Shown here: positions 5,292 to 63,801 of the stretch, piece after piece
Layout: every line of letters begins with the position of its first letter
Position numbering within the stretch: the first letter of the stretch is position 1
Source of the DNA: Hirudinaria manillensis
Lineage: Eukaryota; Annelida; Clitellata; Hirudinida; Hirudinidae
NCBI GenBank assembly: GCA_034509925.1
Contig: CM067536.1
Location: forward strand, 3,334,501 to 3,398,500
Length of the DNA stretch: 64,000 nucleotides
Direction: 5' to 3'
Made by a program: the position numbers and the translations under genes
Notes under the pieces: model-generated
Databases searched by the model: none
Seen by the model: only the letters and a program-made list of their open reading frames with translations
Told to the model about the DNA's origin: nothing

Positions 5292-7112
5292 TACTCGTGG
5301 GAGTGTTTTTGCGGAAATAGTTTTGGGAAATATGGAAGAAGCACAGAATGCAAATCGACTTGTGCAGGGGATACATCACACATTTGTGGAGGTCATTTTG
5401 CAAACAGCGTTTATGCAGGTACTTGTCATTTCATTGCTACAATGTCTGTCTAAGGACAGATTGCGATGCTCAGGTTTTAGCTAAATTTTGCTGACACTAG
5501 TCATATTTATTCTAATTGTTGCTACAATGCAGATAATTTCATTACCTACGAGGTATTTTTAGATGACTTTATTTTGCAGCAAAAAAACTAGAAATACACA
5601 ATAAAACGTGAAAATTGTGTATTAATATTGCCTGCAATGAGAATATACTTAATTTGCAACTAGTTCCCACACAAATTCATACTGATTTAGGCCGGAGAAC
5701 ACTAGAAAAACTGAGATTCTTCTCATAGGGACCACATAGTTTCAATGTATTTTGATGAATTTTGTTCTACTCTGAGGACCACCTGATCAAATGAACAAAA
5801 GAGAAAGAAATAACAGTCAGATAACGATCCATCTTTAAATATTTTGTTTATACTCATCTGGACATTCCAAATTAAACATTTGCTCTTCTGATTCTAATTC
5901 ATTAACTCCATGGTTCAATTGGAACTTTAATGATCTTCTGCCAAACCCGCTATTAACGTTACCTTGCGTCACTCTGATGATTATACTTAATTTGCAAATA
6001 GTTCCCACACAAATTCATACTGATTTAGGCCGGAGAGCCAGCGGGACATTAGAAAAACTGAGATTCTTTTCTTAGGGATTATTTATAGGCATTTGTTCAG
6101 AGTTTCAACGTATTTTGATGAATTTTCTTCTACCTTGAAGGCCACCTGATCCAACTAACAAAATAGAAAGAAATAACATTCAGATAACGATCCATATTTA
6201 AATATTTTGCATAATCTCGTCTGGACATTCCAAATTAAATATTTTCTCTTCTGATTCTAATTCATTAACTCCATGGTCCACTTCAATTGGAACTTTAATG
6301 ATCTTCTACCAAACCCGCTATTAACGTTACCGTGCGTCACTCTGGTGATTATGGAACTATGCGTAGAAAATGCAGTAAATTCTCGCCTAGAAATTGTTTT
6401 GAGCACTCACTATTTAAGACATAATTTGTTTATAATTATGCCCGAGATATAGCCCGCGCACTCTCTTTTGAATCGCAATTTTTTTTAAATTATCCGGTCA
6501 TTATACGAAAATTGTAATAAATAAAATTTTTAGCAAACACATTCGATCGTAGTTTAGATTATGGTGCAAAATGCCCAATTTTAGCCCTTTTCGCAGGCAG
6601 TGGGTGAGGGCGAGGAATTGATGTCATTCAGGGTGCTCTGCAAATAAAATGATTGATTGTATGTGTACATTATTTCTTATATTATGGTGCTCCAATATCT
6701 ATTTATTTTAATCTCTTTCTAGCTAACCATTTTCCTGGTTTGATGATGTATTCTTCCGATATATTTCATTGCATATCGGAATCGGACACACATCATTTCT
6801 GTGCGCATGGTCCATGTAATCAAGGATGGAAGGGAAGTAGATGTCATCACAGAGGTTTATATGTATTTATTTGTTTATTTATTAAATAATTAATTTATTT
6901 ATGCATCAAACCGAATTTATATCGAATTTGTTTGTTCATTGGCGCATTTTACCGATCCTTAATTGCTGTTTACAAATCTCAAGATTGTTCATACAAGAAT
7001 GGACAATGTGAAGACCAAAAATGCGTTCTAAGTAAAATAAACGGTCAATTCATCACTGAATGTGTATGTCAAGAAGGCTTTCGAAGTAAATCTGTTTATG
7101 AAAAGTGCCAAG
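5292..7112 (+). pseudogene. G1: WSC/EGF receptor gene, 3-exon remnant
   Basis: Three exons match the family. 5292-5418 is the second half of a WSC domain (CFCG, then two Cys pairs, then the SVYAG end), with donor GTACTT. 6723-6854 is an EGF-like module of the form FPGL..YSSDIFHC...GPCNQGWKGSRC. 6984-7112 is an EGF module, DCSYKNGQCEDQKC to YEKC. The phases (0 to 1, 1 to 1, 1 to 1) match genes D and E. The signal peptide and first WSC exons are absent: gypsy A lies immediately upstream and the window starts inside it, so they may exist farther left. No transmembrane exon follows before G2 begins at 8599, so it is probably a non-functional remnant. WSC domains are putative carbohydrate-binding modules. 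Confidence 0.75.
5640..6350. repeat. Tandem duplication inside G1 intron
   Basis: Two copies of a roughly 345-bp unit lie head to tail (about 5640-5985 and 5986-6350). Each begins near ATACTTAATTTGCAA and includes GATTTAGGCCGGAGA. The equivalent G3 intron (about 26050-26440) has a single copy. Confidence 0.85.
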
Positions 7113-7166
7113 GTGAATAAATACTTTATATAAATAGATAATAATAAATAAAAATAATATGCATAA

Positions 7167-7415
7167 GTGCGTAACATAAGCCCAAATTATTATAAAAATT
7201 ATTATTATAAAAAAATTATTGCTCGTGAAAACTTTGACTTGAGCAATGTCCTTGCCTTATTATTTCACATAAAAGATGAGAAGAAAATCAAACATTCAGA
7301 TGATTCTGTTCAAAACTTTACTGAAACATTCTCTGACCTACACATAAGCCCAATTTCAACTGATGATAATATTTATTTAGCTGAGAATTGTGTTTTTTAC
7401 ATTTGTAATTCTTAA
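7167..7415 (+). other. Unassigned 82-codon open frame in a duplicated block
   Basis: The frame has no recognisable motif. The same block occurs at 37954-38193, with the reading frame kept open and only a few changes. The surrounding duplicated block spans about 7150-8100 and 37955-38843. The region lies downstream of the G1 and G3 EGF exons and could be an exon, an old transposon fragment or a chance ORF. I do not recognise the protein. Confidence 0.3.
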
Positions 7416-8598
7416 TGACAAATAGGTGTTCATTTACGTCAAGAATTGTTAGCTTCGTTCGCACAAAATTACTTGGTTTCAATTTTATTAATTTTTCTTT
7501 CACGAGACTCCAATGATTGCCTACGAGATGTTTGCGCTGAAAAAATATCTGCATTGACACATTTGGATCATACTTATGTCGAACATCAAGCAAAGTAAAT
7601 TTTTATTGAACTGTGAATTAATTTTGTGATATCGAAATGCTTTCTAAATAATTATAATATTCTTAGCCGTAATTAGAAGGCGATCAACGGTCAATCAAGT
7701 CAAATACTCTCTGCAAATCCAGAAAATTTTGTTTTATGCTATTCAAGGTTCAATGGGATTCAAATATTTAAAATATTTCTTGTAATTTAATTAAGAAAAC
7801 ATATAGTACTTTATAATTAAGTGCTATTTCTAATCAATGAAATGGAATTACTGGTAGGAGAAAGTTGCCACGATGACAATAAGTCCTTAATTAATGAAAC
7901 AAATATATAATATTGTAATAACTAATAAATGAGCAATATGTTGGGTTTTAAACCATCCGTTCATCTCATCATAGGAAAACATTTTATAAATTTTCGATTT
8001 AGTAAGTATTTTCCACAAATTTCAAATATCAAAATCTCATACTAGACGCTGTCGCGTTAGGCAACCATCTAATATTTATAAAATGTTTTAACTATCCTGA
8101 GTGAAAGTAGAGTGATCCATATTCGATCAAATATCCATCAAAATAGAGGAAAGTTTGAAGCTTGTTTCTGATGGAGACAAAATATGAAAGCAGTCTTTTG
8201 TTTTGATGTTACCAGCGGTAAACCAATAAAACATTAGGGTTTCGCTTGTCACAAATACAATTATATATGTATATGCAAACATATGTATACGAATATATAC
8301 AAATGCAATTACCTTTATCAATTTGGATGAGGTATTCTAATAAAACAAATTGCATTATTAGACGAGTCTTGATTTTTCGCTCGACAGGATCTCGGTAAAC
8401 TTCCGCATTCATTGAGCTTATCTCGAAATATTGTTCAATACTGTTCAAATTTTGCCTGCATGATTATTTTTTTATGAATTGCAATTTATTGCGGGTTTAG
8501 AGAAAACAAATTTAAAACTGAGGATTAACTATGACGGTCATCGTTTAATATTAATGCCATTAATCAGGACAAAAACAGATAAGTTTACTGTCAACAAT
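7416..8598. other. Non-coding, AT-rich; 3' part of duplicated block and G2 upstream region
   Basis: Up to about 8100 it is the duplicate of 38195-38843. From there to 8598 I see no coding exon; this stretch precedes the G2 start codon and should hold its promoter. Confidence 0.6.
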
Positions 8599-8830
8599 AT
8601 GGCTGCCTGTCACGCAATAATAGCTTTAGTAATTCTTTGTATGGCACACGTCGTGACGGGAGGTGGGTCTTTATGTTCCTCTGCGATGCTATTTCCGGAA
8701 CTGAACCTCAGCTGAAAAGTTTTTATTTTATTAATATAGCAGGAGTCGTTATTGGTGAGAAACTCTATGTCGGATGTTTCAGGTGGTTCCGGTCTAGATC
8801 CTACGACGCACGGACGTCGGATAAATGTAT

Positions 8831-9129
8831 TGTAATAACCCGGGGTCCTCAAACTAATTATAGAAGGTCAGGTTTATTGAAAGTTGTCAGATGGCTTGGA
8901 AGATGTACAATGCTCGTATGTCTAAGTCTTGAAATCTGCTGTTTTTATTACTCTCGCTCTGTTTTCCGAGATAAATCCATTTGTCGAGGTACATAACCAA
9001 AGAGTCTGAATAGTACCAATTAATTAATTATAAAATTATATTGCCACTAAATTTAATTAATTACTAAATTAATTAATCGGCAATATAATTTTAATTATTC
9101 TTCAATTTACTGGATCCAGGGATCCAACA
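8831..9129 (-). repeat. 3' LTR of SAP element copy 2
   Basis: 299 bp, TGTAATAACCC to GGATCCAACA on the + strand, with the internal inverted repeat around GGCAATATAATTT. Confidence 0.9.
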
Positions 9130-9417
9130 CTGCCTCCTCCTTAAATCTGTTCGTCCCGAACAGACATCTATTCCCATTTTCATTTTTACTCTCGGAATAG
9201 GATCCGATCTTCCAACAATCTCATGGCTGCAAATCCCAGATCCATTTGCTTTGTCATCTTCTGGGATTTCTGTTTCCTCCCTTTTACTTCTGCGTCCCGC
9301 AAGTTTCAGCCGTGGGACATCGCCATTTCCATGCACACTCTCCTGCTCCGCGATGTCGCCAGATCTCAGACTCTCTTCAGGGTCACCTGCTCCACTTTCA
9401 ATGCTAGGCACTCTCCC

Positions 9418-10248
9418 TTAATCCCGAGCACTCCCTTCTGTTATCTTCAATGGAGACGAAACATCCGCTGGTAAATCCATGGCCTCTCCCGAAGACTTCA
9501 TTTGTTCCAGTACTAACTCCGTGTGTTCTACTGGTAACTCTATGTGCTTCATCAGTAACTCCTCGGACTGCACTAAGAACTCCACAGGCTCTGCTGGTAA
9601 ATCCATGGACTGTTCTGAAGACTCTACTTGTTCCACCATCAACTTCGTGTGCTTCACTTGCTCCACTAACACCTCCGTGAGCTCTCTGAGCCCTGCTAAC
9701 GTCTCGACTTGAACTGGTGACTCTATGGGCTCCAACGGCGGGTCCTCTGAGTCCGCCATCACGCACAGCGTTTCTGGAGACACGCACGCACTGTGTTCGG
9801 ATGTGTCTTCTAATGACTCCATCCCAATGCCGCCAGAAACTGTACCTGGAACAACGGACATGATTTGTTCTTCGTTGGTAACATTTTTGCTGAGTTCCTC
9901 TCCTTGTTCTTCGCAAGATGGAAGCACCACTTTGCTCTCCTCAAAAGAACCAACAGGACTCTTCTTGGTAGAGTTTTCACCCGAAACCAGCGAGACATCC
10001 TGACACGGAACCGCTGTGTTTTCCAAATGGAAACCCCTAATACACTCCCTCAACTCCTCTCCTAACGTTCTCAGAAACTTACTATATCGAGACTCGAATT
10101 CGTATTCCTCCGGGTCATGGCCATTCTCTATCAGCCATGCCCCAAGTCGCTCTCGTATCTCAGCTTTCGTGCCTTTGCAATCTAGGCCACGATCTCTCAA
10201 TTCTTGTCTCAATCGAGGCACGTACAATTCATCCAAGTACCGCGGCAT
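9418..10248 (-). CDS. SAP-domain repeat protein of element copy 2 (276 aa, C-terminus cut by a stop)
   Basis: It starts MPRYLDELYVPRLRQELRDR (SAP domain, about residues 5-40). The acidic repeat region is at about 165-265 with units around MVEQVESSEQSMDLPAE. A TAA at 9418-9420 ends the frame. The C-terminal 106 codons seen in the longer copies continue in the same orientation at 9091-9411, starting VPSIESGAGDPEES, so a single stop separates two conserved halves. The arrangement of repeats differs from copies 1 and 4. Function unknown; the SAP fold suggests nucleic-acid binding. Confidence 0.65.
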   Translation of the reverse strand: MPRYLDELYVPRLRQELRDRGLDCKGTKAEIRERLGAWLIENGHDPEEYEFESRYSKFLRTLGEELRECIRGFHLENTAVPCQDVSLVSGENSTKKSPVGSFEESKVVLPSCEEQGEELSKNVTNEEQIMSVVPGTVSGGIGMESLEDTSEHSACVSPETLCVMADSEDPPLEPIESPVQVETLAGLRELTEVLVEQVKHTKLMVEQVESSEQSMDLPAEPVEFLVQSEELLMKHIELPVEHTELVLEQMKSSGEAMDLPADVSSPLKITEGSARD

Positions 10249-10310
10249 CCTTTACTTTTCAACTAAACAAGCTTCTACCTTAGTTACTCTTGGATACCCC
10301 TTAACTCTAA

Positions 10311-10328
10311 ATCCCACTCCTGACACCA
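10311..10328 (-). promoter_or_regulatory. Primer-binding site, tRNA-Leu type
   Basis: On the minus strand it reads TGGTGTCAGGAGTGGGAT. This is the exact complement of the conserved 3' end of animal tRNA-Leu(CAG) including CCA. The intact gypsy copy uses the same site. Confidence 0.85.
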
Positions 10329-10329
10329 A

Positions 10330-10629
10330 TGTAATAACCCGGGGGTCCTCAAACTAATTATAGAAGGTCAGGTTTATTGAAAGTTGTCAGATGGCTTGGA
10401 AGATGTACAATGCTCGAATGTTTAAGTCTTGAAATCTGCTGTTTCTATTACTCTCGCTCTGTTTTCCGAGATAAATCCATTTGTCGAGGTACATAACCAA
10501 AGAGTCTGAATAGTACCAATTAATTAATTATAAAATTATATTGCCACTAAATTTAATTAATTACTAAATTAATTAATCGGCAATATAATTTTAATTATTC
10601 TTCAATTTTCTGGATCCAGGGATGCAACA
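10330..10629 (-). repeat. 5' LTR of SAP element copy 2
   Basis: 300 bp, beginning at TGTAATAACCC and ending GGATGCAACA on the + strand; followed by the GTAT duplication. Confidence 0.9.
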
Positions 10630-10924
10630 GTATTATATCCTGTCAAACTAATGCTTACTACTTCGCTGCTATTAAGGTAATACGCTGTGATTGTTTTATA
10701 AGTTAAATTGCGAAAAATATTATTTAATGACATTATTTATTTGTTCTAATGTTGTAGAGTTTTTTTATTAATATTTGAAATATTTGACGCTCAAAATTTG
10801 AAAAATAGAAATGAAATTTAATGTAACTTTCATAGTTATCCCCAAAAATGCGAGGTCGCACTTCAAATTATGAGATTAATTTTTGCTCGTTTAATTATTT
10901 ACGATGGCAGTTTGCATTCATTTT

Positions 10925-13620
10925 ATTTACATTTATTTATCTAATATTTTACGTGCTCAATGTAATCCCGAAGGGATGTAAAGGCACGGCGTCAAGAGCT
11001 CACAAATTTGCAGTCTATGAAATATAAAATAAAAAATAAAATAAGATAAGGTTAAAATAAAAGTGAGTGAACAGAATGGAATAAAACAAAATAATAGATA
11101 CAGGGAAAAAAGACAAACTATAGATTAAAGAACTAATGATATGAGATCGCATATAAATGGGTTTTCAGTCCGGATTTGAAGGTTTCTGACGACTGAGCCA
11201 GACGAATGTTCGGAGGAAGCAGGTTCCATATCACAGCAGCGGCGACATAGAAGGCCCGATCAACCTGCCTGACACTGCGAGACCGTGGAACGACCAGGGT
11301 CCTACTCTCTGATGAGCGGAGTGATGCCATAGGGGCATCATCAAGTTTGGAGTTGCCGTAGATATGAATGTCATCGGCATACTGGTGACTGAAGAGTTTA
11401 TGTTTGGAGATGATGCTTTCAATGTCAGCCACGTATAGTATGAACAATATTGCTCCTAGGACTGATCCCTGGGGAACGCCCGATTGCTCAAGATGGATGG
11501 CACTAACAGATTGTGACGACACTATTGTCTCATGTCGTTCTTACAAATAATTTCTGAACCACTGCAGTGCATTGTGACGAACTCCAAATGTTTCATCCAA
11601 CCTGGCGATGAGGATGTCATGGTCAACGGTGTCAAAGGCCGCTGACATGTCCAGCAGAAGGAGGAGGGAGACCTGACCTGCATCGAGTGCCATGCGTATG
11701 TCAGACACAACCTTCAATACAGCGGTCTCAGTGGAGTGATGCGGTCAATAGACAGACTGTGTGCTGGGAAAGAGCGTATTGCTGTAGAGGTAGAACAGGA
11801 GGCGTCTAAGTACGAGTCGTTCGAGAAGCTTTTAAATGACGCTTAGATTCGATATTGGGCGGTACGATGAAGGTACTTGCAGGTCGAGGGTGGGCTTCTT
11901 AAGTATGGGCTGAACTAGTGCCATCTTGAAGGAGTGGGGAATTTGGCCCAGGAAAAAGGATTTGTTGAACAGGTGAACGACGAATTGAGCAAGAACATGC
12001 GAGACCTTCTTCAGCAACCAAGTGGGTATTGGATCAAGTCCTGACTGCTTGTGGGGGAGGGAGTTGATGAGCTCCTGGATCTCGTCTATGGAGGTTGGCT
12101 GAAATTGCTGCAACTCCGAACCTGTGACACAGGGAAGGAAGTGAGATGGCGGAGCATCGCTCGTGGCTGAGCGGATGGCAATCAGTTTTCCATCAAGGTA
12201 CTCGCGGTAGACTGGAGGGACCGGAGCAGCCAATCTGCTAGTGACGCTGCCTAGACCAGTAGCATCTCCGATGAGCTTCCATCTTCTGGCAGGATGGCGC
12301 ACCTCTGCTATGCGCCTGGCATAGTAGTTTCGACGCTTTTGATGTAGCAGAGCAGCATACGAGCGGGCACAAGCCCTGATGATGTCAGTGCTGGCGCGCC
12401 GTCTTCTGAGTCGAGTCAGGTGTGATCTCACTCTCATGACCTCAGCATCAAACCATGGCTGTTTGTATTTGTAGAAGCATGGAGTCGATAGGGGGAGGGA
12501 CCTCTCAACCACCTCATTGAGAGTGTCATAGTAAAGATCAGCCAGGCGATCAATATCCATGGAGGTCCACGTCTCTGGGTTGGTCAAAGGAGAGGTGCTG
12601 AGAAGTCGTTCGAAGAGAGGCATGTCATAATTCCTCCAGAGCCTGACCCTATTTGCATCTGGTATGTGACGAGGGACTGAGGACGAAGTCATCCATATTA
12701 GAAGTTTGTGGTCAGAAAGACCACTTTCCAACTTCTCGACCGCCGTAACAGGTAAGCCATCATCGTCCCTCTCAAGGACAATGTCCAGGGTTCCACCGCA
12801 GTCATGGGTGGGTCCGGCAACAATCTGACTGAGGCCGAAAGATGAAATAAGATTAGTGAAGACCAGGCTGTTCGAATTATCAGTCTTTTCGAGGTGAATA
12901 TTTGTGTCTCCAGTAACAAACAGTGTTGGGGAGCCAATGACAAAACGACGTAGTAGCTCCGAGAGTTCTGAGAAAAAGAGAGTCTCTAAGTTTCCAGTCC
13001 TGTGTATTGTCAATAGGTTTATGTGTTTGGCGTCTTTGTTTATGTGGTTGGCAAGAGATTCGAAGGTAGTTGGGTTGAAACAGAGGTTTTGCTGCTGCAG
13101 TTTTAATGAAGGGGAGGCTAGTACAGCTAGACCACCATGGTTTGTATTCAGGGACCTCTGGGCAGGGCCTACACGAGGTCTCGGGCGATCAATGACCGAG
13201 TAGCCTCGAGTTCGTAGTTGATTAATTGCCAAGGAACCTTCATCATGCCAAGTCTCAATCGCCGACAGCACATTGACTTTGCCAGCAGCCATAATATCCG
13301 AAAGGGGATCAAACTTTTTCCTTATCGATCGGATGTTCAGACATCCCATTCTAAGAGTAACGTTCTGGTCTTTCATAATCAGTGTTTGGCGAGGGGGCGA
13401 GGGGATGCGTGGAAGCCAGTTCTTCGGTCGCCAGATCCGGAGGTGGAACAATGACTTTCGTATAGCTCTGTCAAGACGTTTCCTTCCGTACTTCAGATTG
13501 AGAAGTTGTGTGCGATCATACGTCTTCATTTGCGCATATCAAGAGGTCTGAGAAGGACACATGAAGTAGGCTGAGGTTCAGCAAGCTGTTGGCCGAGAAG
13601 AAATGTAAATACAACGAAGG
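10925..13620 (-). mobile_element. CR1/L2-like non-LTR retrotransposon, defective
   Basis: The element is in reverse orientation in an intron of G2. Its 5' region lies near 13620. The 3' end near 10925-10990 carries CCTTTACATCCCTTCGGG on the minus strand, followed by an A/T-rich tail. It has an AP-type endonuclease followed by reverse transcriptase. An in-frame stop and frame breaks in the RT, and a deletion after the YADD motif, make it inactive. The G2 intron on the left resembles the G3 intron at about 24240-24410, which locates the insertion. Confidence 0.85.
11133..13529 (-). pseudogene. LINE ORF2-like: endonuclease and reverse transcriptase
   Basis: The first frame (13529-11832, 565 codons) carries an exonuclease-endonuclease-phosphatase domain. 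Visible motifs are LRMGCLNIRS near residue 60, SAIETWHDE, VTGDTNIHLE and SGLSDHKLL, the last being the catalytic SDH. RT starts around residue 480 (SGLDPIPTWLLKK, SSYRPISNLS). Frame shifts follow, then the palm motif AAFDTVDHD, a TAA stop in FRNYL, SGVPQGSVLG and YADD (about 11345-11370). Sequence then jumps to the C-terminal tail ending at 11133, with roughly 150-170 residues of thumb and connection missing. It resembles the CR1/L2/Crack part of the LINE tree. Confidence 0.85.
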
Positions 13621-14126
13621 TCCGGATAACGCGAGCCCATGTAAGTGAAAGTGGTATATTTCGAAAGCTCCCAATGAGACGAGTAGAAATATATCTAATT
13701 TGTAATAAGTAAAAGTCCGCTACACTCGCAAAACCGGCTTAAGTGCACACGCAAAAACAACCCGCCAACACGCACAAGGCGCAGGAACTGCACAGAATTT
13801 ATTAAAAATATTACGCAAGGTTATAATCATTGCGGAAATTCTCTAGGTAATGATAGAGTTGCCACAAAGGATTTCCAAACGCCAAATCATTACTCCGTTT
13901 ATGCTGGTATCGTTCGTCGTTTTTATTTCTAGTAATAATTTTATTATTATTATCATCATATATATTTTTATGGTTATTGTTATATCTTAAATTACTCGCT
14001 ATATAATTAAGGACTACTTCGGGAATTGGAGATACTAAGCTGTTTTATTACTGAAATCATACTAGCTCCCAAAGACTCTGAATATTATCGTAATAAACTT
14101 TAAGTAATGATAAATTCTTATAATAT

Positions 14127-14640
14127 TGTTGGATCACTGGATCCAGATAAGTATTAAATAATTAAATTATATTGCTAATTAATTATTAAATAAATAAACT
14201 AATTAATTAACGTCCAGAGTACTAGTCAGAGGCTTGTACTTGGATGAGTTGTACATGCCTCGATTGAGACAAGAATTGAGAGATCAAGGCCTGGATTGGA
14301 AAGGCACGAAAGCTGAGATACGGGGCATGGCTGACAGAGAATGGCCATAACCCGGAGGAATACGAATTTGAAGATCCATTTTTATAAAGAAATGGATAAA
14401 TTTCGTGATTTGACGAAAAAGACCAGAGAGGAGTGGAAGGGGAATATTAGGGGCATTTTGGAAGACACAGCGGTTCCATATCAGGATGCCTCGTTGGTTT
14501 CGGTTGAAAACTCTACCGAGAAGAGTTCTGAAGATTCTTTTGAGGAGGGCAAAGAGATACTTCCATGTTTCGCGGAACTAGGAGAGGAACTCTGCAAAAA
14601 GGGTCCCACTAAAGAACAAATCATATTTGGTTTTGGCATT
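14127..14640 (+). mobile_element. SAP-ORF LTR element, copy 3 (fragment, + strand)
   Basis: It starts TGTTGGATCACTGGATCCAG after the flank ATAT. About 85 bp of LTR remain and join by deletion directly to the start of the SAP ORF (about 14237), which reads LDELYMPRLRQELRDQGLDW in pieces. A deletion in the GAWL region shifts the frame before NGHNPEEYEFE at about 14346-14378. The DTAVPYQDASLVS segment follows, and the homology fades near 14640. Confidence 0.75.
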
Positions 14641-15476
14641 GCGTCTTCTTGGGAATGTTCCTCTAGCATCTACTTGCCTCTGTCGAATGGCCAATACCAT
14701 TCCCTCTGTCTTACTGACTTCTCAATTGGTCCTTCCTTATCACCAGCATGCCTCTTCCTTCTTGGGACTTCCATTGAAGTGGCAAATCTGACTTGACGAT
14801 ATTCATTAAATCTTCTTCACAGGTTAATCCTCCTTCCGGATTGATGTCCATCCAACACAGTGCTGTTCTACTTGAAAGACAGGCTTTCAAATAGTTGGGA
14901 TGCACTGGCCACTGTATCTCACTTCCTTTACAAATGATGTCATCAAATAGTTTAGGAGGCAAGCAAATGTTTTTTTTTACAACTGAAAATAATATTTACG
15001 AAATTATCAAATTTTATTTGCATTCTCTTGATAACAGTTATATTAATGATGATACTGATGATTTTAGAAAATGTTTTGGTTAAATAATTAGTAAAATACA
15101 AAATAGGATGGCTAACAAAGAGGTACCTTTGATAGCATTGTTTTCAAAAAATACTTTGGGAAAATTGACAGCAGCATTTTGTAGCAGAAGATCTCTCATG
15201 CTTTTAACTGGATTGTTGATGATATGCTGCTGATATTAAGTAATTAACATGTTAAGGCAATAATTCTTCTCTTCTTGGGACTTCTACTGTTTCTCCTCCT
15301 ATCATCATATTTGTCGGATCTGCATGTGTCATGGCTTCCCTGCCTCGAATTACTCCTCTATCGTTTGTAAAAACTTTTTGACCTTGATCCTCTACCATCA
15401 CTTGGAGAAGGGGAGTGAGATGGAGTACATGAATTTAACCTCCTTCGTTTGCCCCCATGATTACTGATTGAATCGC
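14641..15476. other. Unassigned sequence inside the Mag-like element
   Basis: Only short minus-strand frames occur (for example 14711-14962, 83 codons). They give no motif I recognise. It is probably the rearranged interior of the surrounding LTR element. Confidence 0.4.
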
Positions 15477-15920
15477 CTAGTTCCTGGTCTGTGTAAGATC
15501 TCCTTGATTTACAACTGGATCAGTATCAACTGATTTCCCTGGTTCATCCTGGAGCTCGTTCACTCTCTTAACAGGATCAGCATTAATCCCTTCCTCTTCC
15601 TCCTTCCACACATCGCAGTGGACAGGAGTAATTGCCACCAATCTTCGCTGACCTTGCACATCATGGCTTCTTCTTGGGCCTCGCCCACCACATCAAGTGG
15701 AGCATCCTTACATCTTTCTTCCTCCTTCCATGTATCGCAATGGACAGGGGTAGGTGCAGTCACGGTATCTCTGCTGAACATATTGAATATTGTCAGCCAT
15801 CGTTCTTGATCTCTTTGCTCCTTTTTTTTCGCGCTCTTGTTTCTCCCTCTGCTCTTTTCCTTCCTGGTAGTACAGGAACATCATGAACATCTCTTGGCTA
15901 CCGATAGTTCTTGAGCGTTA
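15477..15920 (-). pseudogene. Gag-like fragment of the Mag-like element
   Basis: In element sense a short Gag start (MSNAQELSVAK) at the primer site breaks frame after about 13 codons. It continues as a coiled-coil-like basic/acidic segment (FMMFLYYQEGKEQREKQERE), then two copies of a motif PVHCD.WKEEE about 40 residues apart in different frames. A third frame carries the stretch ending DLTQTRN. The order fits a Gag N-terminus, but no nucleocapsid zinc knuckle is seen. It is broken by frameshifts. Confidence 0.45.
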
Positions 15921-16689
15921 GACATCCTCGTCGCAAATGTTGTATCATAAATTACTTGCTATATAATTAAGGACATCAAATCCATTTGTTTGCTAGCACA
16001 TTTGATGTTCTTAAATACCTTTTTTTTAAAATCTCAAGATTGTGCAATCAACAATGGAAATTGCGGGAACCATCAATGCGTTGAAAGTGAAATCAACGGC
16101 CAACTGGCCACTGAATGTCTATGTGGACAAGGCTTTAGAAGTTCATCTGTTTTTGAAGCATGCCGAGGTGAAATGACAAATGCTTAATGAATAATTCAGT
16201 GCATAACTACGTATACATGTACATATAGTCATAAGACTAACGAGTACATAGATGCTGGAAACTCCTCCTCGGAGCTTTCCGACAGGGATCATCAGAGAAG
16301 GTCCCCCATCTTCGAACGTTTCGGCCCTTTGAAACCCCTGACGTTCTCCGGGGGTGGGCCGCATCCGGTGATCAGCCGGATGTCCCTGTCGGTTTCCATT
16401 GTGCGGAATCAAAAGCTTAGGCTTTGGAAGGCTCTCATTGGCCTCCTTATGCCATCACGTGCCAGACTGGAGCGACTACTGAAAGCTCTCGTTGGCTTCT
16501 TTCGTCGCAGCACTCAGTCGCTGAAGCGACGCCACCTAGCCCCTACGACTCTCAGTGGCCTTCTTTCAGTCATCCCTGCCGCCCAACAGTATCGATTTGG
16601 GCTTTAAATTTTCTTTGCAGCGGCGCGCGGTAACAGACATTTCCGTCACCGGCTCCGCGCCTCTCGGGCGATGAATTACTTCGGTGGAT

Positions 16690-26800: not shown

Positions 26801-27205
26801 CTCTTTCTAGCTAACTATTTCCCCGGTTTGACGCTGTATTCTTCCGATATATTTCATTGCGTATCCATTTCGGATAGACATCGTTTCTGTACTAAAGGTC
26901 CATGTAAGCAAGGATGGAAGGGAAGTAGATGTCATCTTAGAGGTTTACATTTATTTATTTGTTTATTTATTAGTTAATTTATTTATTTATTTATGCATCA
27001 AACCGATTATATATCGAATTTGTTTGTACATTGGCTCATTTTATTGTGTCTTAATTGCTATTTACAAATCTCAAGATTGTTCATACAAGAATGGACAATG
27101 TGAAGACCAAAAATGCGTTCAAAATAAAATCAACGGTCAATACATCACTGAATGTGTATGTGAAGAAGGCCTTCGAAGTAAATCTGTTTATGAAAAGTGC
27201 CACAA
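23887..27205 (+). CDS. G3: WSC-WSC-EGF-EGF receptor-like gene, 3' part cut by a Helitron
   Basis: Seven exons join in frame. 23887-23947 is a signal peptide with hydrophobic core IIVITLASLCMA. 24041-24174 plus 24649-24742 form WSC domain 1. 25064-25212 plus 25711-25837 form WSC domain 2 (YYGCYRDKPSR...ECYCG/CFCG-type halves). 26811-26942 is an EGF-like module and 27076-27205 an EGF module. Each WSC is split at a phase-0 intron and modules begin at phase-1 introns, as in genes D and E. The last exon ends CHK then GTAAAT, a donor in a different phase from G1. The Helitron at 27235 starts 30 bp further on. No transmembrane exon was found between the Helitron and gene C. About 275 residues remain: a secreted fragment at best, or a pseudogene in progress. 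Confidence 0.7.
24410..24605. repeat. AT-only minisatellite in G3 intron
   Basis: Repeats of the form AATATAATTTATTAATTAAAT make up almost the entire stretch. Confidence 0.85.
24966..25016. repeat. (ATC)n microsatellite in G3 intron
   Basis: An interrupted run of ATC triplets. Confidence 0.9.
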
Positions 27206-27376
27206 GTAAATAAATACTGTTAATAAATAGATAATCTATCTATATTCTATATAAATAAAAATGCGATGTGTGTTTGTAATGTGCAAATGTTCTCTGAAAG
27301 TACTTAAGCAATTGCTTTGTAATTTTGACACAACATAGTACTCGATTAAAGGAGTGTTAGTATATAGGATTCATAT

Positions 27377-27597
27377 TGTTGTAACCCGGGGTCTGATGAA
27401 TTAATTAACGTAAGGATATCTTTATTGGATTTAACTAATGGCAAATACGGCTGGACGATTTGGTCGATTGCTTGTCCTGACGGAACTGCCTAATGACCCG
27501 AATCGCTAGATACGACTTTGAAATAAAAGATTCTGAATATTAACTAAACTTAATTAATTAATTATTTAATTAATTAATTAATGTCAGGGATCCAACA
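27377..27597 (-). repeat. gypsy B left LTR (reverse)
   Basis: Reverse complement of the 222-bp gypsy LTR, TGTTGTAACCC to GGATCCAACA on the + strand. Confidence 0.9.
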
Positions 27598-27736
27598 TTA
27601 CCCCCTCCTTAAATCTGTTCGTCCCGAACAGGCTGTTCTGTTTCTCCGTGATATTTTGCTAATCGATTGCTGTGGACCACTTTCATTCTAGTCCTTGCTG
27701 ATTTCTGTATGCGGTATACCACGTCGTTTATTTTCT

Positions 27737-29977: not shown

Positions 29978-30045
29978 CTGCCAGTAACCACTTTTGAGAT
30001 CTAACGTGGAAAAAATTTTTGATCCCGAGAGAGTGTCTAAAGTAA

Positions 30046-30266: not shown

Positions 30267-30270
30267 ATAT

Positions 30271-31116: not shown

Positions 31117-31122
31117 ATATAA

Positions 31123-31344: not shown

Positions 31345-31345
31345 T

Positions 31346-36368: not shown

Positions 36369-36370
36369 AA

Positions 36371-47800: not shown

Positions 47801-48387
47801 ATTTTAGTTCACTTACTTTTACGGCAATAAATGGAACCCGATACTTTTTACAGGCAGTCGCGCAACCCAAAAACGATGGAATTTTAAATGTTACCTTTCT
47901 GCTGTCCTTAAATTTATAATAGCACCCAACGAAGATTTCAAAAGGTAAAGCTGTGTAATAAATTATGTATTAGAATTTATAGCTAGCAATTTAAATTGGG
48001 TGTACTTGTACATTCTAATATAAAACACTCGTTACTCGTTATTAGGTAACTCAGACAACTCCCAGATAATAAGCAAATTTCAGCATTTTTAACAATTATA
48101 GATCCAAAGTAATATTCTACTACAATATTTGGCCAACAAAGTTGATTTTCACATTAATATGAAATGCCAAGTTTATTTAAATGCTGTCCGAACATTTAAA
48201 ATAACCCTTTGTTTAACGTAAACCAGCACATTGTGAAATTTCAAACAAATCGAATAGCATATTTTAAAGCAGACACCTTTGCATTTGAAAAATATATCAA
48301 TGTAAATTATGATAATCTACCTCCGATTTGTGAATGGCTCAAAATAAATATAGCTAGAAAAATGACGAACTCTGGCAATTTATTCAT
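44825..48387 (-). CDS. Gene D: WSC-WSC-EGF type I membrane receptor (459 aa)
   Basis: Twelve exons: 48387-48321, 47950-47817, 47720-47597, 47472-47357, 46815-46695, 46635-46501, 46427-46296, 46195-46076, 45563-45435, 45265-45146, 45072-44989 and 44922-44825. All junctions keep frame; total 460 codons including TAA. Domains: signal peptide 1-22; WSC 23-108 (FVGCYYKF...TCHCG) and 109-187 (YYRGCLS...VCKCS); EGF-like 188-232 and 233-276; calcium-binding EGFs 277-316 (DKDEC) and 317-359 (DEDEC); Cys-containing module 360-399; transmembrane 400-427 (ITLVTSAIMCIIIALG). The short charged tail 428-459 holds three Tyr, without a clear ITIM or ITAM. There is no phosphatase domain. Probably a surface protein binding glycans or protein ligands; ligand unknown. 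Confidence 0.82.
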
Positions 48388-54833: not shown

Positions 54834-57800
54834 ATGGCTGTTATCAATGTCTTACAAGTTACCAGATTTATAACAGTGTTTCTCATAATCAACTTAACTT
54901 TAACTAAAGCGGCCGGCGATATTCTAACGAACAATTTAGCTTTAGGAAAAACGGCTCATCAAAGCTCAAACCATTCATCACTTCCAGGATCCAATGCAGT
55001 TGATGGAAAATATTTTCAGACGTATACGAAATGCGCACATGGCGATGATAAAGCTGGAGGTCCAAATTGGCTGGTTGTTGATTTAGAGGATTCTTATCAC
55101 ATCCATGAGATAATATTAACGCCAAGAAGAGAGACTGATGATACCTCAGAATCTTCAAATCGTAAGAAATTACTGTCTTTATTACGATTTGCTTTTAATC
55201 GCATCCAGTAAGATGTTTAGAAATATTAATTTTTTTCAGAAATAATAAATATTATTTAAAAATATTTTACTTTCACCTCATTCATCCCTTAAATGTTTAA
55301 AACGTTAAAACAACGTTCCGGACAATGTTGATGAATAAATAAATTTATTTTTTTTTTAATAAAGGAGAAACGACTCCTAGGATGCAGTATGTCTACGTTG
55401 GAATAACAAATGAATTTAATATCCATAATCTCACTCCGGTCAGACACAATTATCCGCTCTGTAGACAATGGCCTTATGAAACCGACATTTCTAAAAATTT
55501 ATCGATAACATGCCGACCGAACACACCTCCTGGAAGGTATTTAATCGTTCAACAACCCATCACCGGACCTGGGATGTTGACAATTTGTGAGATTCAAATC
55601 TTTGGCGAGAAATTAAAGCAAGGTTATTAATGTTACTATTATTAACGTTGTTATTATTATTATAAACATTGTTAATATTATTAATATTAACATTGTTATT
55701 ATTATTATTTTATTATTATTATTTTAAATTACCGAATTTGTAATACCTAATATTAATTGATATTCAATCTTTTCTTGCAGACAATGGTGAATGCCTCGAT
55801 GGTTACTATGGAGAGCAGTGCGACAAGCAGTGTAATTGTTTCAAACAAATAGGTTGCTTCAGATCAAATGGGACCTGCCAAAGTGGTTGCGATAAAAACT
55901 GGGAGGGACCGACTTGCAACAGAAGTAAAAACTTCAAGTGCAATCAATTGATAAACCTTGATATTCCAAAGTTTCTTGTTTTTTGTTTTTAATTTTTTTA
56001 ATAATTTAACAAGGACGTGCAGATTATGAAAAGCTTAGAGTAGGATGCTTCCTTTCAAATTTAAATCACAGTGATATCATTTTGACGCCAAGGTACACAA
56101 CGTGTGTTGATCAATGCTCAGGAAATGGATTCAACTTTGCATCAGTTTGGGTATTTGAATGAAATTATAAAATGCATTTATTATTTGAAAATTTATAATT
56201 AAAGTTCAAATTACATATAGTAAAAATAATACAATGATGTCCTGTTAATACATAAGCAAATCTTTACAGCATTATTATTTTTTTTTTAAATTTTTATATA
56301 TTGTTATGTAAACGTAACTGATAATATTCGCAGAATGAAACCTCATGTTATTGCACCAACCACATTGATTGGTCGTCATCAACTGATAATTGCAACGATT
56401 CATGTGCTGAGAATATTTCAGAAGAATGCATCACTTCAAATGGAAATATTTTGTTGTCAGGTTGATATGCCTTTTGACATTAATTCTAAAATTGATCTAA
56501 AAAGCTCTTAAAAATTATCACAAAGTTTTATAATTACGTTTTTAATTGTGTTGTTAGGTACTTAATGTACATCCAATAATCAACTTATTATTATTAATTT
56601 ATTAGCACGAGGAGCAATTTCGAATTCAACATCAAATAGAAAACTATATTAAAAAACATATTAGCAATAATTAAACAGTTCTTTATAAGTGCTAAATTTG
56701 GACATAATCTCTTGCTCTTATTACATACAATTATTATGGATTGTTATTTGGTGTTTGACTGAATTTTATTATATTATGTCGTTATGTTATATAATATTAA
56801 TTAATATCTTAGCTATTTATCGAATTAAATTCAATCATTAGTCTGTCCTAACGGAACTTATGGCTATAATTGCACACTGAGATGCAACTGTTTGAACAAC
56901 GAGAGATGTTGGTATTTAAATGGTTCATGCAATCAAGGATGCAAGTCAGGCTGGATTGGTGATTCATGCAACATCAGAGGCTGGAAATACTTTTGTTTAT
57001 TAATAAATAATATTTTCAAAATTATTAATGTTAAGCATAATTTCCACAAAATATACTTTGTATTTGCCGTTTTAGAGTTTTCGTCGATTTAATTCTTAAT
57101 TAACTTAATGTCAATTAAATCAATGAAGATTGTAAATCAAATAATGGCGACTGTGAAAGTCGCGAAATCTGCAATTCCTCTTCTAATGACATCTCGTCAT
57201 GTACCTGCGACACTGCCATTTACCATCGGAAGCACTTGTGGTTTTCTTGCGAAGGTAGCCTGTTATAATTATACCAAACATTGATTGCAAAACCCATTTG
57301 CTAAAATCATGTCTAAATATTAATAGCGAATTTTTATAAAATAGGCAATTTATTTGAATAATTAAATTACAAACAAAATGAATTGCAGATATAGACGAAT
57401 GCCAAATGAACAACTCTTGCAAACTAGATGAAGTTTGCCAAAATTCCGATGGAGGATATAAATGCATTTCTAAAGGTAATTAAACATCTGTTGTTCCGGG
57501 GAAAATTACCCAAGATTACTTTCCCATGAAAGCAATTTTAAATGAGAAGTGCTGTCGTTGTTATTACAAAAAAGCGGTTAACAAGATTCATGTCCAAATA
57601 TTTTATCCTATTAGCTGTCGGGTTGAATGAAGTCATTTATATTGTGATTGCTCTTGCGACCATTATTATCCTATTGGTCGCGGTTTTATTAATTCTGAAA
57701 TTCAAAAGAAGGTAAATTGATTGATTTCTGCAATTTCATCTGAATAAATATTTAAATTGAAATTATTATTAGGCATAATTTGAATGAGAATTATACGTCG

Positions 57801-60800
57801 AGGGCTAACAGTTCAGGTTTGTCAAACATTTGAATTTCAGGGCTCGGTTTCTTAATTTTCGAAATTATTCTACGTCTTATTAGTTGAATGTTACAATAAA
57901 AATTGCATTATATTTTTACGGGATGAGTACCAACATGCAGAGTATGGCCACAACGATTTTCATAGTGCTAAAATTCCAAGAGCAAAAATAGAAGAAGAAA
58001 TAGGACAATAATAAGATTATTATTAAGCATTGGTCTGGTGCTCACTCACACGATTAAGAATAGTATCTATAAAATGGCAAAATATAAATTTATATACACA
58101 TACTTATATCTTCTATAGATTATGTAGCGTCCTCGAGTAGTGGTATTCGGAACAAAGTTACAGATTTGTACTTGGATGACTTTCCATCTTATGTGGTCGG
58201 GAAGAAACAACTAATCGAAAAAGAGTTCAAAGTAAATGATATTCATACGATTGTACGTTTCTTAATTATCATAAATTGACAGTCAGTGGTCTTCTTTGAA
58301 CGAGAAACTTCGGAATAGAATTTCAACAAAATAACTTATTCATTTATTTATGCTGGAAATGGGCATAATCAATTACTGTCTATACAAATTATTTAAACTA
58401 TATATATTCATTTATTATTATTAACAATAAATTTATTATTTATTATGTTATTTGATTTTTGATTAAATATTACTGTATTGCATGTTACTATGCGTGCATG
58501 TTTCTAAAAAAAATGTTATTTTATTTGCAAAACTCAGGAATTGCCTGTTGTAAAACATCCAGTTGCGTTTGCCCTGAACCAACCAAAATCTCTGAACAGA
58601 TTCAAGAATATCGTTCCTTGTAAGCATCTGCATTTGCTATATTTCAGTGAATTGACTTAACGTTTATCCAAAACATTTATTAAATATGCCAATTATAAAT
58701 GCTAATTGCACTGAAATAGTTTGTGTCTAATGGTTTGTATATTATCAAACAATTTAAATACTAATACATTATTATTTTGATCAGACGATAACAACAGAGT
58801 GGAACTGAAGGCTGTCGATGAAGAAGCTTCAGATTACATCAATGCCAGTTATATCAAAGTATTATTTCATCCTTATGTGATTCGAAATTTAATGGTCCAT
58901 TTTGTACTAAAAGAGTTTTATTCATGTTTTAATTGTATTTTAGAATGTTCTGCCAACAACGCTGATAGCAACTCAAGGTTTGCTTGTCAATGTTACTTGA
59001 AGTCATTGCAAAATTTTGTTCGAAATACTTAAGGTGTAGGAAACTAAGTGAAGCAGACAAATCAGACAATTGCATTACTAGTTCACTGAATAATTGAATA
59101 ACATCTAAGTGGTAGTCCATATATTCCCATATGCAACCAATTCAAAAATTACAATAGGAAAACGAGGTATACATTTGCAAGTTATTCGAGGAAAAGCGCA
59201 AAGATAATCCATCCAGTTTTGGAACCTTCACATTAGAAAGAAATGAATTAAATTTATTAAAAATGACACAATTTTACACTTTTTTTTTTATAAAAACATG
59301 AAATTGATATATTAACATACATTAGGACCGACGCAGGAAAGTGTAGAAAGTTTTTGGAAAATGATTTACCAAGAAAATATCGGAATTATTGTCATGTTGT
59401 GCAATTTTGTGGAAATGTCGAAGGTTAGTCACGGTTTCATATTTTAATGATTTTTAAAAAAGAAATAATTTTTAAAGATATTGAAAATATTCATCTTTCT
59501 CAGCCAAAATGTGCAAAATATTTGCCTGCAGAAGGAAGCGAGTCTTATGGAAATATTACAATAACCAAGTTGAATAGTTGTGATTGGCCTGAGTATAAAG
59601 TCACCCGCCTAATTCTTGAAAAGGTATAACTGATTACATATTACTGTTAACATATGCAATTCCATTAAACTTATAAGTCGATGTATATAACTTAAATAAA
59701 GCCATTTGATTTATAAATCGAATAAAATTGCATTTGCAAATCGATATTACATTGCCATTAAAAACATTTTGAAGGAAGGCAACAAGCACGAGATAACTCA
59801 CCTGCATTACTTAAAATGGCCCGATCACGAAGCTCCGAAATATATTTCCTATTTTTTGGCATTTAATAGACACTTCAGAAATCTTTATGGAAGACAAAAG
59901 TGTGGCGTTGTAGTACATTGCAGGTACTATTTACAAGTTTGTTTTATTGATTTAAAAAAACAACAACAATATGGATTTAAACTTTCTATGGCACTACGAG
60001 GTAAGTCTTATTCGAAAGTGCCCAATGAAAAGAGAAACTACACCATATGAAGTTAAACGGTTTGCGGAATATTCATTGCCGGAACATTGGCAGCGGACAA
60101 TTCATCGCAGGAAAATTCAACGCTTGGAATACTTCGCTAACTTTAATTTTAATAATGTTGCAGTGCTGGAGTTGGCAGGACAGGTTCATTCATAGCTATT
60201 ACCGAACTCGTGACAAGGGCATTGGCTGGACAACCAGTAAATGTTTCCGGATGCGTGAACAAACTCAGAGAAAGTAGAATGAAAATGGTCGAGAAAGAGG
60301 TAACGTCCCATGCTGATTTGGCATTCTGTTTTTTTTTTAAATTGAATAATTAAAAAGGGTTATTTGGAGATTTAGTTTTAAAAATAGAAAAAAATTTTCA
60401 TCAAAAGTATTTGTAATAACCGATTCAAATTAACTTTAAATATTTTTCAAAGAACAATTTTTGTCATAAAATGTAATAATAAATTCTAATAAGTAAATGG
60501 CAAATTCACTTGATGTGAACCATGTTGTTGATCGTACAAATTTTATTTTAGATCCAGTTTGCATTTATTTATGACTGCTTGGCGGTCGAGGCAAATTTGG
60601 GACAAACGAATTTTAATCCACAAGAATTCCAAAAGAAATTTTCGGATAACAAATTTATGAAGAAAATGGAAAACCAGTATCAGGTACGTATTTTAAAATA
60701 TTATTCCAAAAATAATTAAATTAAGTTTTCATCAAATGAAATGCCGAACCAATACTTAAATCTGAATCGATTCCGTGCTTCTTATTGCAGCATTTACAAA

Positions 60801-62335
60801 CGCTTTTAGAAAAAAGACATTTTAAAGAAAGCAATTTCATTGAGGTAAATACCTTTCACGATTCTTATAAATGAATATGAAACGACGAATAAATGAAATG
60901 TGATTCGCTTGAAATTGTAGGTTGTCACCAGTACTAGAAAATTTCATTTGATTCGACAAAAATCCGTTAGTGGATTTTGGTCAGAAATACCTAAAGAATG
61001 TGATCTTGTCATTGTGCTTGGTCAACAAGAGGTGTGTTTTTTTTTTTAAATGCTGGAAGTTAATTCGAATATAAATTGTCCTGAACGCAAAATATTTTCA
61101 TTTAGGAATACTTTCCAGATTGCGACCAATCCATCGATACAGGAAGTTTTGTGATATCATTCGCTGGCGAAGAAACGAACTTGAATGGAAATATTCTCCA
61201 TCTTCAAATGTTTGAGAAAAGCGATTCAGATACTTATGCAAATACCCCAATATACGTTAGTCATGTCAAATAGCATAAAAGTAATACATACGGAATGGCC
61301 GAAAAGTAAAATAGGAGCGGAGAAGTTACGGTGCTGACGTCATTGGCCAACGTATGTTAAAATCACAACTTGCGCGTCCAAAGTGCCCTCTGGGGCATAT
61401 GTATAAATATTATATGTAACTTATCTAAAAGTGGCCTAAAATGACTAGAAAAGCAACAGAAAATCATCATTCTTTTTAGTACATTAACTACAAAATAGAT
61501 TTTTTTACTTCTAATATGTAATTAACTGGCCTTTGCTAACTTTTTTAACTTTTTTTGCTTAGGAAAATAATGAGAATCTGGCAAATCCAGTCATATCCAG
61601 GCAAATCACAGCAATTTTGGTTCAATGGGAAGAAAATGAAGAAACAGAAAATTGTGCCACGTTCATTGAAATATTCAGAATGACGAAACCCAAGTCATTA
61701 ACTTGTCTAATGTTTTCGTAAGTTTGTATTTGAAATAAAATGAATTGGATTTATAAATGTTTATTTACATTGATAAAAGTAAGTTAATCGTTCGATAAAT
61801 TCACTCAACAATTTTAGGATAAAGCGGACCTAAAATTGTTTTTCTATTAGATAATAAAATCGCAATTTATCTTGTTTTGTTTGAAAAAATTTTACTAAAC
61901 ATAGTGACATCTCATAATGAGAATTAATGGTTAACCACTGTTAATGGTTTTGTTTGTCCACGATAAACATCCATTACATTTAATGCTTTACAGCTGCGAA
62001 AAATTAGCTGGGTTTTTCATGACCGCATGCAATGTTTTGGACCAAATGCTATTTAGGGATGAAGTTGCAGTATTTCAAAACTTGCTGGAAATACAGAGCC
62101 AAAGTTTTCGCTACGATCCAACGATGGTGAGTGAATCATATTAAGGGATACTTTTATACCCTATAAATACTTAATTATTTTTAATTTTGATTGAAATTAC
62201 CAACTAATTTCTTTTCGAATTAATGAACGTTTACTTTGATTTTCTTTTTTTTCTCAGGTTGACTATATAAAGCTACACGAATTGGTTATGGAATATCTCA
62301 AGCAAGAAGAGAAGAATAAGTACCTTTTAAACTAA
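54834..62335 (+). CDS. Gene F: receptor-type protein tyrosine phosphatase with discoidin, EGF and WSC ectodomain (1031 aa)
   Basis: Exons 54834-55161, 55365-55622, 55781-55924, 56023-56150, 56334-56460, 56842-56979, 57129-57254, 57389-57475, 57615-57711, 57773-57816, 58119-58231, 58538-58619, 58785-58858, 58944-58977, 59326-59423, 59504-59623, 59775-59923, 60164-60299, 60552-60683, 60791-60844, 60921-61031, 61106-61255, 61563-61717, 61994-62126 and 62258-62335 join in frame to 1032 codons. Signal peptide about 1-25; F5/8C about 27-190 (NLALGKTAHQSS); EGF 196-243; WSC 244-328; EGFs 329-374, 375-416 and 417-445 (DIDEC); transmembrane about 452-472. PTP D1 is about 531-790 with NRFKNI, DYINASYI, WPD 681-683 and HCSAGVGRTG 714-723 (Cys715, Arg721), so catalysis is likely. 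D2 is about 800-1031 with SCEKLAGFF in place of the signature: no P-loop Arg, presumably inactive. The exon 6 donor is GC rather than GT. Confidence 0.85.
57947..58010 (+). other. Possible alternative terminal exon of gene F
   Basis: After acceptor ACATGCAG, a phase-1 frame reads EYGHNDFHSAKIPRAKIEEE and then stops at TAA (58008-58010). There is no usable GT donor. It lies between the transmembrane/juxtamembrane exons and the first phosphatase exons. If used with a downstream poly(A) site it would give a membrane receptor with a short tail and no phosphatase; the main reading skips it. Confidence 0.4.
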
Positions 62336-63740
62336 TTTTATTCAGTTTTTCCAGGGAATGTCGTTTGAGGTCGAAAGATACTTCGTACGAATGACATTGG
62401 TTTATAAATTTACGATATCGGTAGACATATTTATGATATTGATAGAAAAATTTTTGATAATGATAGAAAAATTGCTGATATTGCTAGACAAATTTGTGAT
62501 ATTGGAAGGGATATTTATGATATTGGTATACAAATTTTTCAATATTTCTATTCATACTTCAGCATCTTAGCTGATACGAATAACATTCAATTTTGCAAGA
62601 ACTCAGTCGTAATTACAACAATTCGATCTTGCATGCTTGCTTCAAGTGAATTGCGATGAGACTTTTTTTTTAGAAACTATTACAAGCTAAATTGAAGCTG
62701 GAATAATTTTATTCAGCTTTTATAAAGAATATCATTTGAGGTTTAAAGATGCTTCAAGAGTATGAGAATCGGTTCAAATTGTTTTCAACAATTTCCATCT
62801 CTTCATACTTCAGTATCTTTGGTGACATAATTAATATTCAATTTCAAGATTAGTAATGTTTATTAATGCAGCATCGGTCTTGCATGTGTGCCTTATGTAT
62901 TCAAGTTAATTGTGAAGTCACTATTTTCGAATAGATGTTGACTTTAAAGGATTGTATTTACTTACCACCAAAAAATCGTTTTGAAATAAATAAAAGAATA
63001 AAATAAATAATTTAGAAATTATTATTAAAAATGCTCGTAAATGACTTAATAGTCCTAATTATGCTAAAAAGCTTAACCAAAATTGTGAATTTGTAATAAC
63101 GAAAATGCAACGTTTTTAAGACTCATTGCCCAGATGCTGCCTAGAGTTATGCTAATTTATCCCAATGTGACATTTAGAGCTGAAAACATGAATAAACCGG
63201 TTGAAATGACCATGAATATAATTCAAACATTTGATGTTAAAAAATGAAATTTTAAATTTAAAAATGTTGCACTGAAACGGTTATTTGTTATAAAATTTAG
63301 GAGTTCATGACTCATTCAAATCTAAGAGATGGGCTCTGTTTCAGAATTCGTAATTAATTCGTAAAAAAAAATCATCTCGCTAATATGCTAATATGTTATT
63401 TGAACAATGCAGGCAGTTCAATTACGGAACAATAGTGAACGATTCGTACATCAATGCAAAGATATTTTGAGAAACAAATTTGCATTTATAATTGATTCGT
63501 AATTGATTCATAATTGATCTAAAAGCGTTTAAACGTGAACTCGAATTAAAACCAGTTTGAACTTATTCCTAAAAGTCATTTAAAATTTTGAATATGAGTA
63601 ATACAATATTGTCTTTATAAATCAAAAGTCATTATTCTCAGACTTTATATGCTTATATAAACCAATCATTTGTAGGAACCGGTTTTGTGAGACTTAGGCA
63701 CGTAATCTTAGTTTACGTACAGTCTTAGAGATTTAGAATT
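62336..63740. repeat. Gene F 3' flank: minisatellite and tandem duplication, no gene
   Basis: 62400-62560 is a degenerate ~24-bp tandem repeat around TTGATATTGATAGAAAAATT. A larger unit starting TTTTATTCAG(C/T)TTTT and including TTCATACTTCAG(C/T)ATCTT is present at about 62336-62680 and again at about 62705-62925. Nothing recognised from 62930 to 63640. Confidence 0.65.
63654..63661 (+). promoter_or_regulatory. TATA box of the gene beginning at 63741
   Basis: TATATAAA about 80 bp upstream of the ATG of a signal-peptide exon. Confidence 0.4.
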
Positions 63741-63801
63741 ATGGTTGTCATCTCTCTTGTGATCAGAATTTGTTTTATTTTCTTATTTTGCCCAAGAAAA
63801 G
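63741..63801 (+). CDS. First exon (signal peptide) of another cluster gene, continues beyond the window
   Basis: ATG followed by a strongly hydrophobic stretch (VVISLVIRICFIFLFCP) and a GTAAAT donor. The exon is 61 bp ending in phase 1, the same length and phase as exon 1 of G3 and close to those of G2, C and D. That makes it the likely start of another WSC- or discoidin-type gene. The next exon lies outside the window, so the product is unknown. Confidence 0.5.

Follow-up and report, generated by a model that had tools for sequence, protein, structure and literature searches.

Paired activating and inhibitory receptors are, to our knowledge, known mainly from vertebrate leukocytes; they have Ig or lectin domains, and the inhibitory arm carries an ITIM. 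Draper, CED-1 and MEGF10 are built of an EMI domain followed by many EGF repeats, and receptor phosphatases of the LAR/PTPRS type have an Ig/FN3 ectodomain. According to the passages of PMC8092387 cited here, Draper is an engulfment receptor with an ITAM: Src42a phosphorylates it, Shark reads it and Corkscrew erases it. Kremen combines kringle, WSC and CUB domains, with a phase 0 intron within the WSC region (PMC3927609, in the passages cited). Among the top papers listed in literature searches, with few subscription journals covered, none has a title or abstract opening describing a combination of WSC, F5/8C, EGF and PTP domains; the main text of the Dinobdella leech genome paper (PMC10494388) contains neither "WSC" nor "phosphatase", and the oyster innate-immunity paper (PMC4346834) does not contain "phosphatase".

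The window analysed here (the whole stretch of 64,000 nucleotides, C11:3334501-3398500) comes from Hirudinaria manillensis, and the genome searches covered its 23-contig, 148,429,096-base assembly. The mitochondrial contig of this assembly, C23, carries COX1 and then cox2, atp8 and cox3, and reads TGA=W, AGR=S and ATA=M, which is annelid-like; the AGR and ATA readings and the gene order led us to discard a sponge or ctenophore origin. We read the locus as part of a multigene family that comprises type I surface receptors together with secreted relatives and that most likely serves the leech in innate recognition or engulfment, and assign this reading a probability of about 0.5. The cluster may be comparable in logic to the writer, reader and eraser set of Draper. 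Like Draper, CED-1 and MEGF10, the array genes H1-H11 described below have an EGF-type ectodomain, a single membrane segment and an ITAM-like tail, but the leech genes have few EGF repeats, WSC domains, many copies and phosphatase-tailed siblings; no EMI domain appeared in the Pfam scans of C, D, E, F and H4, which places them outside that family. As in the leukocyte paired receptors, the predicted leech genes P2, H8 and H10 are clustered and have near-identical, presumably ligand-binding ends on opposite kinds of tail; they differ in that the ectodomains are not Ig or lectin, and the presumed inhibitory arm has its own phosphatase, not an ITIM. Gene F resembles LAR/PTPRS in its membrane segment and catalytic PTP domain (WPD, HCSAGVGRTG, Q loop), and is unlike them in its ectodomain (F5/8C, EGF and WSC-like) and in a C-terminal PTP-like region where Pfam finds no such domain. 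The WSC fold (E and H4, Pfam) and the phase 0 intron in the WSC region recall Kremen and other WSC proteins, but the leech WSC domains occur alongside EGF modules and either PTP or YxxL tails.

Gene models and damaged relatives in the window

The window contains four complete gene models (C, D, E and F), three relatives that are damaged (G1-G3) and the probable opening exon of another gene (Table 1). The models were predicted from DNA alone, with splice sites picked by eye; the joined exons give one open frame each, with AG/GT at every intron. Introns are in phase 1 throughout the ectodomains, with the exception of those splitting WSC domains, which are in phase 0. The preliminary description had proposed a linked cluster of WSC, EGF and discoidin receptors around a phosphatase receptor, with shared intron phases, and both points are borne out by the four in-frame models, their Pfam domains and phases, and the damaged relatives. 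Its further claim that all the genes use the same exon modules stands for D, E and the G genes, which have WSC-EGF in common, but not for C, which has only F5/8C in common with F. F5/8C and WSC occur together in F and in a gene at C11:2.665 Mb. The cluster as first delimited ended at 63801, the last base of the signal-peptide-like exon; the family HMM scan places WSC, EGF and PTP exons at C11:3398485-3403211, beginning in the last 16 bases of the window, and we take the signal-peptide-like exon as the probable start of this gene, P1 (WSC-EGF-membrane segment-PTP), which runs on beyond the window. Transposable elements make up about 41% of the window (manual spans).

Table 1 Features predicted in the window (positions from the first letter of the window).
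Feature	Position	Strand	Description	Basis
G1	5298..7591	+	in-window part of damaged WSC-EGF gene	family HMM matches, alignments
G2	8599..16166	+	pseudogene	WSC exon split
G3	23887..38341	+	damaged WSC-EGF gene	family HMM matches, alignments
Gene C	41475..44187	-	secreted; signal peptide and 2x F5/8C, Asn-rich linker between	5 exons in frame, GT/AG; 381 aa
Gene C exons	44187-44121, 43016-42795, 42499-42095, 41992-41771, 41704-41475	-		in-frame model
Gene D	44825..48387	-	signal peptide, 2x WSC, EGF-like modules, membrane segment, short tail	12 exons in frame; 466 aa
Gene E	49390..52360	-	signal peptide, 2x WSC, EGF-like modules, membrane segment, short tail	11 exons in frame; 417 aa
Gene F	54834..62335	+	F5/8C, EGF, WSC-like, EGFs, membrane segment, PTP, C-terminal region	25 exons in frame; 1039 aa
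Gene F, catalytic exons	59775..60299	+	WPDH and HCSAGVGRTG; signature interrupted by phase-2 intron	gene model, alignment
P1, start exon	63741..63801	+	start of next gene, signal-peptide-like	read by eye

Pfam reports F5/8C in two stretches of C (1.9e-14). For WSC (PF01822), E (4e-7) and the array gene H4 (3.3e-20) are above the cut-off, D is just under it (5.7e-6) and F has no reported match; EGF_CA is found in D (9.3e-12) and, under the cut-off, in E (0.0023). Aligned over residues 4-304 of D, E is 33% identical to it. The tail of D has YVIP and no YxxL/I, and that of E has no tyrosine.

F has the features of a receptor phosphatase: a signal peptide and one membrane segment, both assigned by eye, and a PTP domain (PF00102, 2.4e-71, Pfam). 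The WPD, HCX5R, Q-loop and KNRY motifs have recognised roles in PTPs; in F, WPDHEAP, HCSAGVGRTG and the Q loop IQFAFIY are intact, and the KNRY position reads LNRF. In the PDB it matches PTPRS, LAR and PTPRF best. The F5/8C match is under the Pfam cut-off (5.5e-5), and the WSC-like part is suggested by family HMM matches (0.04 and 6e-4) and a phase-0 intron. Pfam finds no second PTP domain past residue 779; the C-terminal region may be a degenerate one, as read by eye from a D2-like order of motifs. A few residues at the end of the EGF1 exon are uncertain owing to a weak donor. A possible alternative last exon of F (window 57942-58011, by eye, with a weak acceptor) would give a short tail without phosphatase.

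The earlier exons of G1 precede the window by about 1.9-3.1 kb; the intervening intron contains a Gypsy element, and the last EGF exon of G1 is frameshifted. The WSC exon of G2 is in two parts (8757-8831 and 10632-10676), separated by a 1.8-kb insertion of repeat sequence; the halves are separate family-HMM matches, and the copy at C11:3326753 is unbroken. Where pieces of G3 match G1, identity is 87-95%. Gypsy elements (27373-36600) separate the EGF exons of G3, the last of which is degenerate. One of these elements, a Gypsy-type LTR retrotransposon (31401-36359, + strand), has a single 1652-aa open frame; adjoining it is a partial inverted copy at 27373-30061, 98% identical. The view of the G-type genes as plain pseudogenes was only partly right: copies at C11:3.592 and 3.607 Mb and on contig C2 look secreted and have open ends. 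Loci L035 and L036 and the C2 copies apparently end without a membrane segment (last exons by eye).

The wider cluster and its ITAM-like tails

The window is the left part of a receptor-gene cluster of about 0.3 Mb. The EGF1 exon peptide gave 43 matches genome-wide (the weakest with E up to 0.1), 27 of them in C11:3.328-3.623 Mb (294 kb) compared to 0.085 expected if they were even; the remaining matches are on C2 (5, at 4.23-4.28 Mb), at C11:2.626-2.667 (6) and elsewhere (5). The family-HMM scan of C11:3.30-3.55 Mb yielded 39 WSCb, 27 WSCa, 22 EGF1, 29 EGF2, 27 EGFca, 9 TM, 6 tail and 4 PTP-catalytic exon matches, counts that include fragments, among them seven weak EGF2-like matches at 3.316-3.318 Mb. 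These seven (C11:3315723-3318500; LLSACVCKTGLHIES and similar) are spaced at multiples of about 345 bp and form a tandem array. The AGVGRTG pattern occurs 31 times genome-wide (control 0): 10 are on C11 (2.0 expected), and 9 between 1.77 and 3.44 Mb (0.35 expected). F can be tied to the WSC-EGF genes because exon matches at C11:2.665 Mb form the series F5/8C, two WSC, EGF and PTP, in that order. Exon matches across the genome, all lower bounds, number at least 52 for F5/8C, at least 96 for WSC and at least 173 for PTP.

A same-strand array of D/E-like genes (H1-H11), with short tails at their ends, occupies C11:3.496-3.558 Mb, outside the window. ITAMs have a spacing of 6-12 residues, and the pattern YxxL/I-x(6-12)-YxxL/I is present in 9 of the 11 array tails, compared to 0.12 expected on shuffling; it is found in neither of the window genes D and E, which are without YxxL/I, so that no gene complete within the window has an ITAM-like tail, and this counts against the proposal. 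Because the 11 tails are related, the shuffling was repeated on five divergent tails: three fit the pattern (0.078 expected), and none of 20,000 shuffles had as many. The second tyrosine is invariant in all nine aligned tails and the spacing is near-constant (x11, but x7 in H6). H1 and H2 have a single YxxL/I each, which counts against the proposal too, and a twelfth tail, on the opposite-strand gene g4, also has one. For H1, H2, H3 and H6 the tail exon was chosen by eye from several open frames, a choice that can favour the motif; tblastx matches the H1 with the H2 tail and the H3 with the H8 tail, and leaves H6 unmatched. The H4 model is complete and open over 413 aa, some of its donors being weak, and H11 is in frame without its first exon. 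All nine matches from the search for close tail homologues fall in C11:3.521-3.568 Mb, and in two of them the matched stretch is interrupted by stops. What appears to be new here is the occurrence of ITAM-like pairs on D/E-like tails while neighbours with similar ectodomains carry phosphatase exons.

SH2-SH2-PTP exon order was found at C13:7.99 Mb and C8:5.85 Mb, and SH2 exons adjoin tyrosine kinase exons, which fits a usable phosphotyrosine machinery. Among the matches listed (130 of 913 candidates scored), no Shark/Syk-type kinase was identified among the tyrosine-kinase matches, and none of these lies within the cluster, so that pairing with a receptor tyrosine kinase there was discarded. 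Kinase-domain matches form tandem arrays at C6:8645724-8695013 and C11:8124678-8139827.

Phosphatase-tailed siblings and selection

In P1, P2 and P3, PTP exons come after WSC-EGF exons; for P3 this holds provided that the 5.8-kb gap separating two of its EGF exons is a single intron. P2 is 79-92% identical in DNA to H8 and H10 from WSC to EGF1 (84-92% in the WSC part, where the introns are alike as well), and 73-79% at EGF2/EGFca; no match was found at the membrane segment or tail (E 1e-5). Synonymous differences between P2 and H10 are 5 in the three WSC exons, 7 in EGF1 and 20.2 in EGF2 plus EGFca; for P2 and H8 the counts are 10, 5 and, in EGF2, 11.1. The three genes form a clade with 99% bootstrap, most backbone nodes being weak (14-50%). 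The identity pattern fits gene conversion or partial duplication. The exons are mosaic (P2 and H7 agree at 94% in the EGF1 exon and at only 73-74% in the WSC exons), and the pairing is therefore limited to the WSC tip of one three-gene set. Within this set the genes are clustered, with like, presumably ligand-binding ends and opposite tails: a like WSC part with an unmatched membrane segment and tail, as predicted for P2, H8 and H10, is the sequence signature of paired receptors. Of the four phosphatase members, F and P3 keep WPD and the signature, P2 reads WKD, and P1 reads WMD with SDGVGRAG.

The exons of the cluster are under constraint, looser outside the phosphatase exon than within it. 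Exon-wise dN/dS (Nei-Gojobori counts; exons from C11:3.398 Mb onward only; stretches below 80% of the median length or with stops dropped; only pairs with pS <0.55 pooled) was 0.27-0.56 in the ectodomain, membrane and tail exons and 0.11 in the PTP catalytic exon (3 pairs). Close pairs gave 0.20-0.45 for the ectodomain and 0.33-0.57 for the tail (2 pairs), and C compared to its tandem copy 0.18. Positive selection was not found on average in cluster exons and close pairs, dN/dS being well below 1, and these values give no support for rapid amino-acid diversification.

Interpretation of the receptor family

The family combines WSC-WSC-EGF ectodomains with four predicted endings: secreted, a short tail without YxxL (D and E), a tail with one or two YxxL/I, and a tyrosine phosphatase. 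One predicted phosphatase receptor and two predicted YxxL receptors have nearly the same WSC tips. Similar outer parts with differing inner ends suggest push-pull sensing. A recognition-receptor family with opposing arms is the best fit to these data because of the four output types, the clustering, and the tips common to phosphatase and YxxL tails; the wider cluster favours it further because it adds ITAM-like and phosphatase tails on similar ectodomains. The immune role of the cluster, like its ligand, the phosphorylation and the opposition of the two arms, is what we infer from these sequences. The WSC/F5/8C end would be the part that binds a ligand, which might be a glycan or the surface of a cell or microbe; phosphorylation of the YxxL/I pairs by a Src-type kinase would recruit SH2 proteins; and siblings with the same ligand-binding tip and a phosphatase tail would take the phosphate off, so that the ratio of YxxL to phosphatase forms would set a threshold. 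The secreted C- and G-type proteins could be opsonins or decoys, F an active phosphatase member with a diverged ectodomain, and D and E decoys or adhesion forms. We propose, tentatively, a more specific possibility: an annelid paired-receptor complex with an inhibitory arm that has its own tyrosine phosphatase, an activating arm with ITAM-like tails, WSC tips kept alike by gene conversion, and secreted versions, as a writer/eraser system independent of vertebrate paired receptors. If this is true, the paired-receptor principle evolved more than once, and a receptor phosphatase can itself be the inhibitory partner. Leeches can be handled, their haemocytes can be collected and several genomes exist, which makes the idea directly testable.

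The YxxL/I motifs could instead be AP-2 endocytic sorting signals (YxxPhi); in that case the array genes would encode receptors for scavenging or uptake, and the phosphatase genes would put the same ectodomain to a separate use. Such signals are common, and the single motifs of H1 and H2 agree with this rather unlikely alternative; against it stand the pairing of the motifs in 9 of 11 tails, with spacing that is nearly constant (x11; x7 in H6), and the linkage to phosphatase receptors with WSC tips in common, neither of which is decisive. Similarly improbable is the view that receptor phosphatases and adhesion receptors of development or epithelium have expanded in tandem, with loose selection, duplication driven by transposons, and no immune role. 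It is consistent with dN/dS below 1 throughout, with the transposable elements that fill about 41% of the window, and with the action of receptor phosphatases such as LAR in neural development, leech included; the concentration of the expansion in a single cluster, the likeness of WSC tips across opposite tails and the presence of several secreted or truncated forms seem to us, as a matter of judgement, atypical of conserved developmental receptors.

The preliminary description had seen in the layout the mark of an innate immune or allorecognition complex. Module shuffling, tandem duplication, pseudogenes and divergent tails were indeed found, but the allorecognition part drew no support. In favour of a complex for allorecognition or gamete self-recognition, the layout here, with receptors that are linked, duplicated and in part broken and have ITAM-like tails, recalls the Hydractinia Alr genes; such a complex is very unlikely, as the host is most likely a solitary leech and amino-acid change is not in excess (dN/dS 0.27-0.56 outside the PTP exon).

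Elsewhere in the assembly, many WSC exon matches are found in a dense cluster at C12:0.54-1.41 Mb and many PTP exon matches at C4:10.30-10.46 Mb. At C9:3026446-3027786 there is a COX1 copy with a score equal to that of the mitochondrial contig C23; it either entered the nuclear genome very recently or is an artefact of the assembly.
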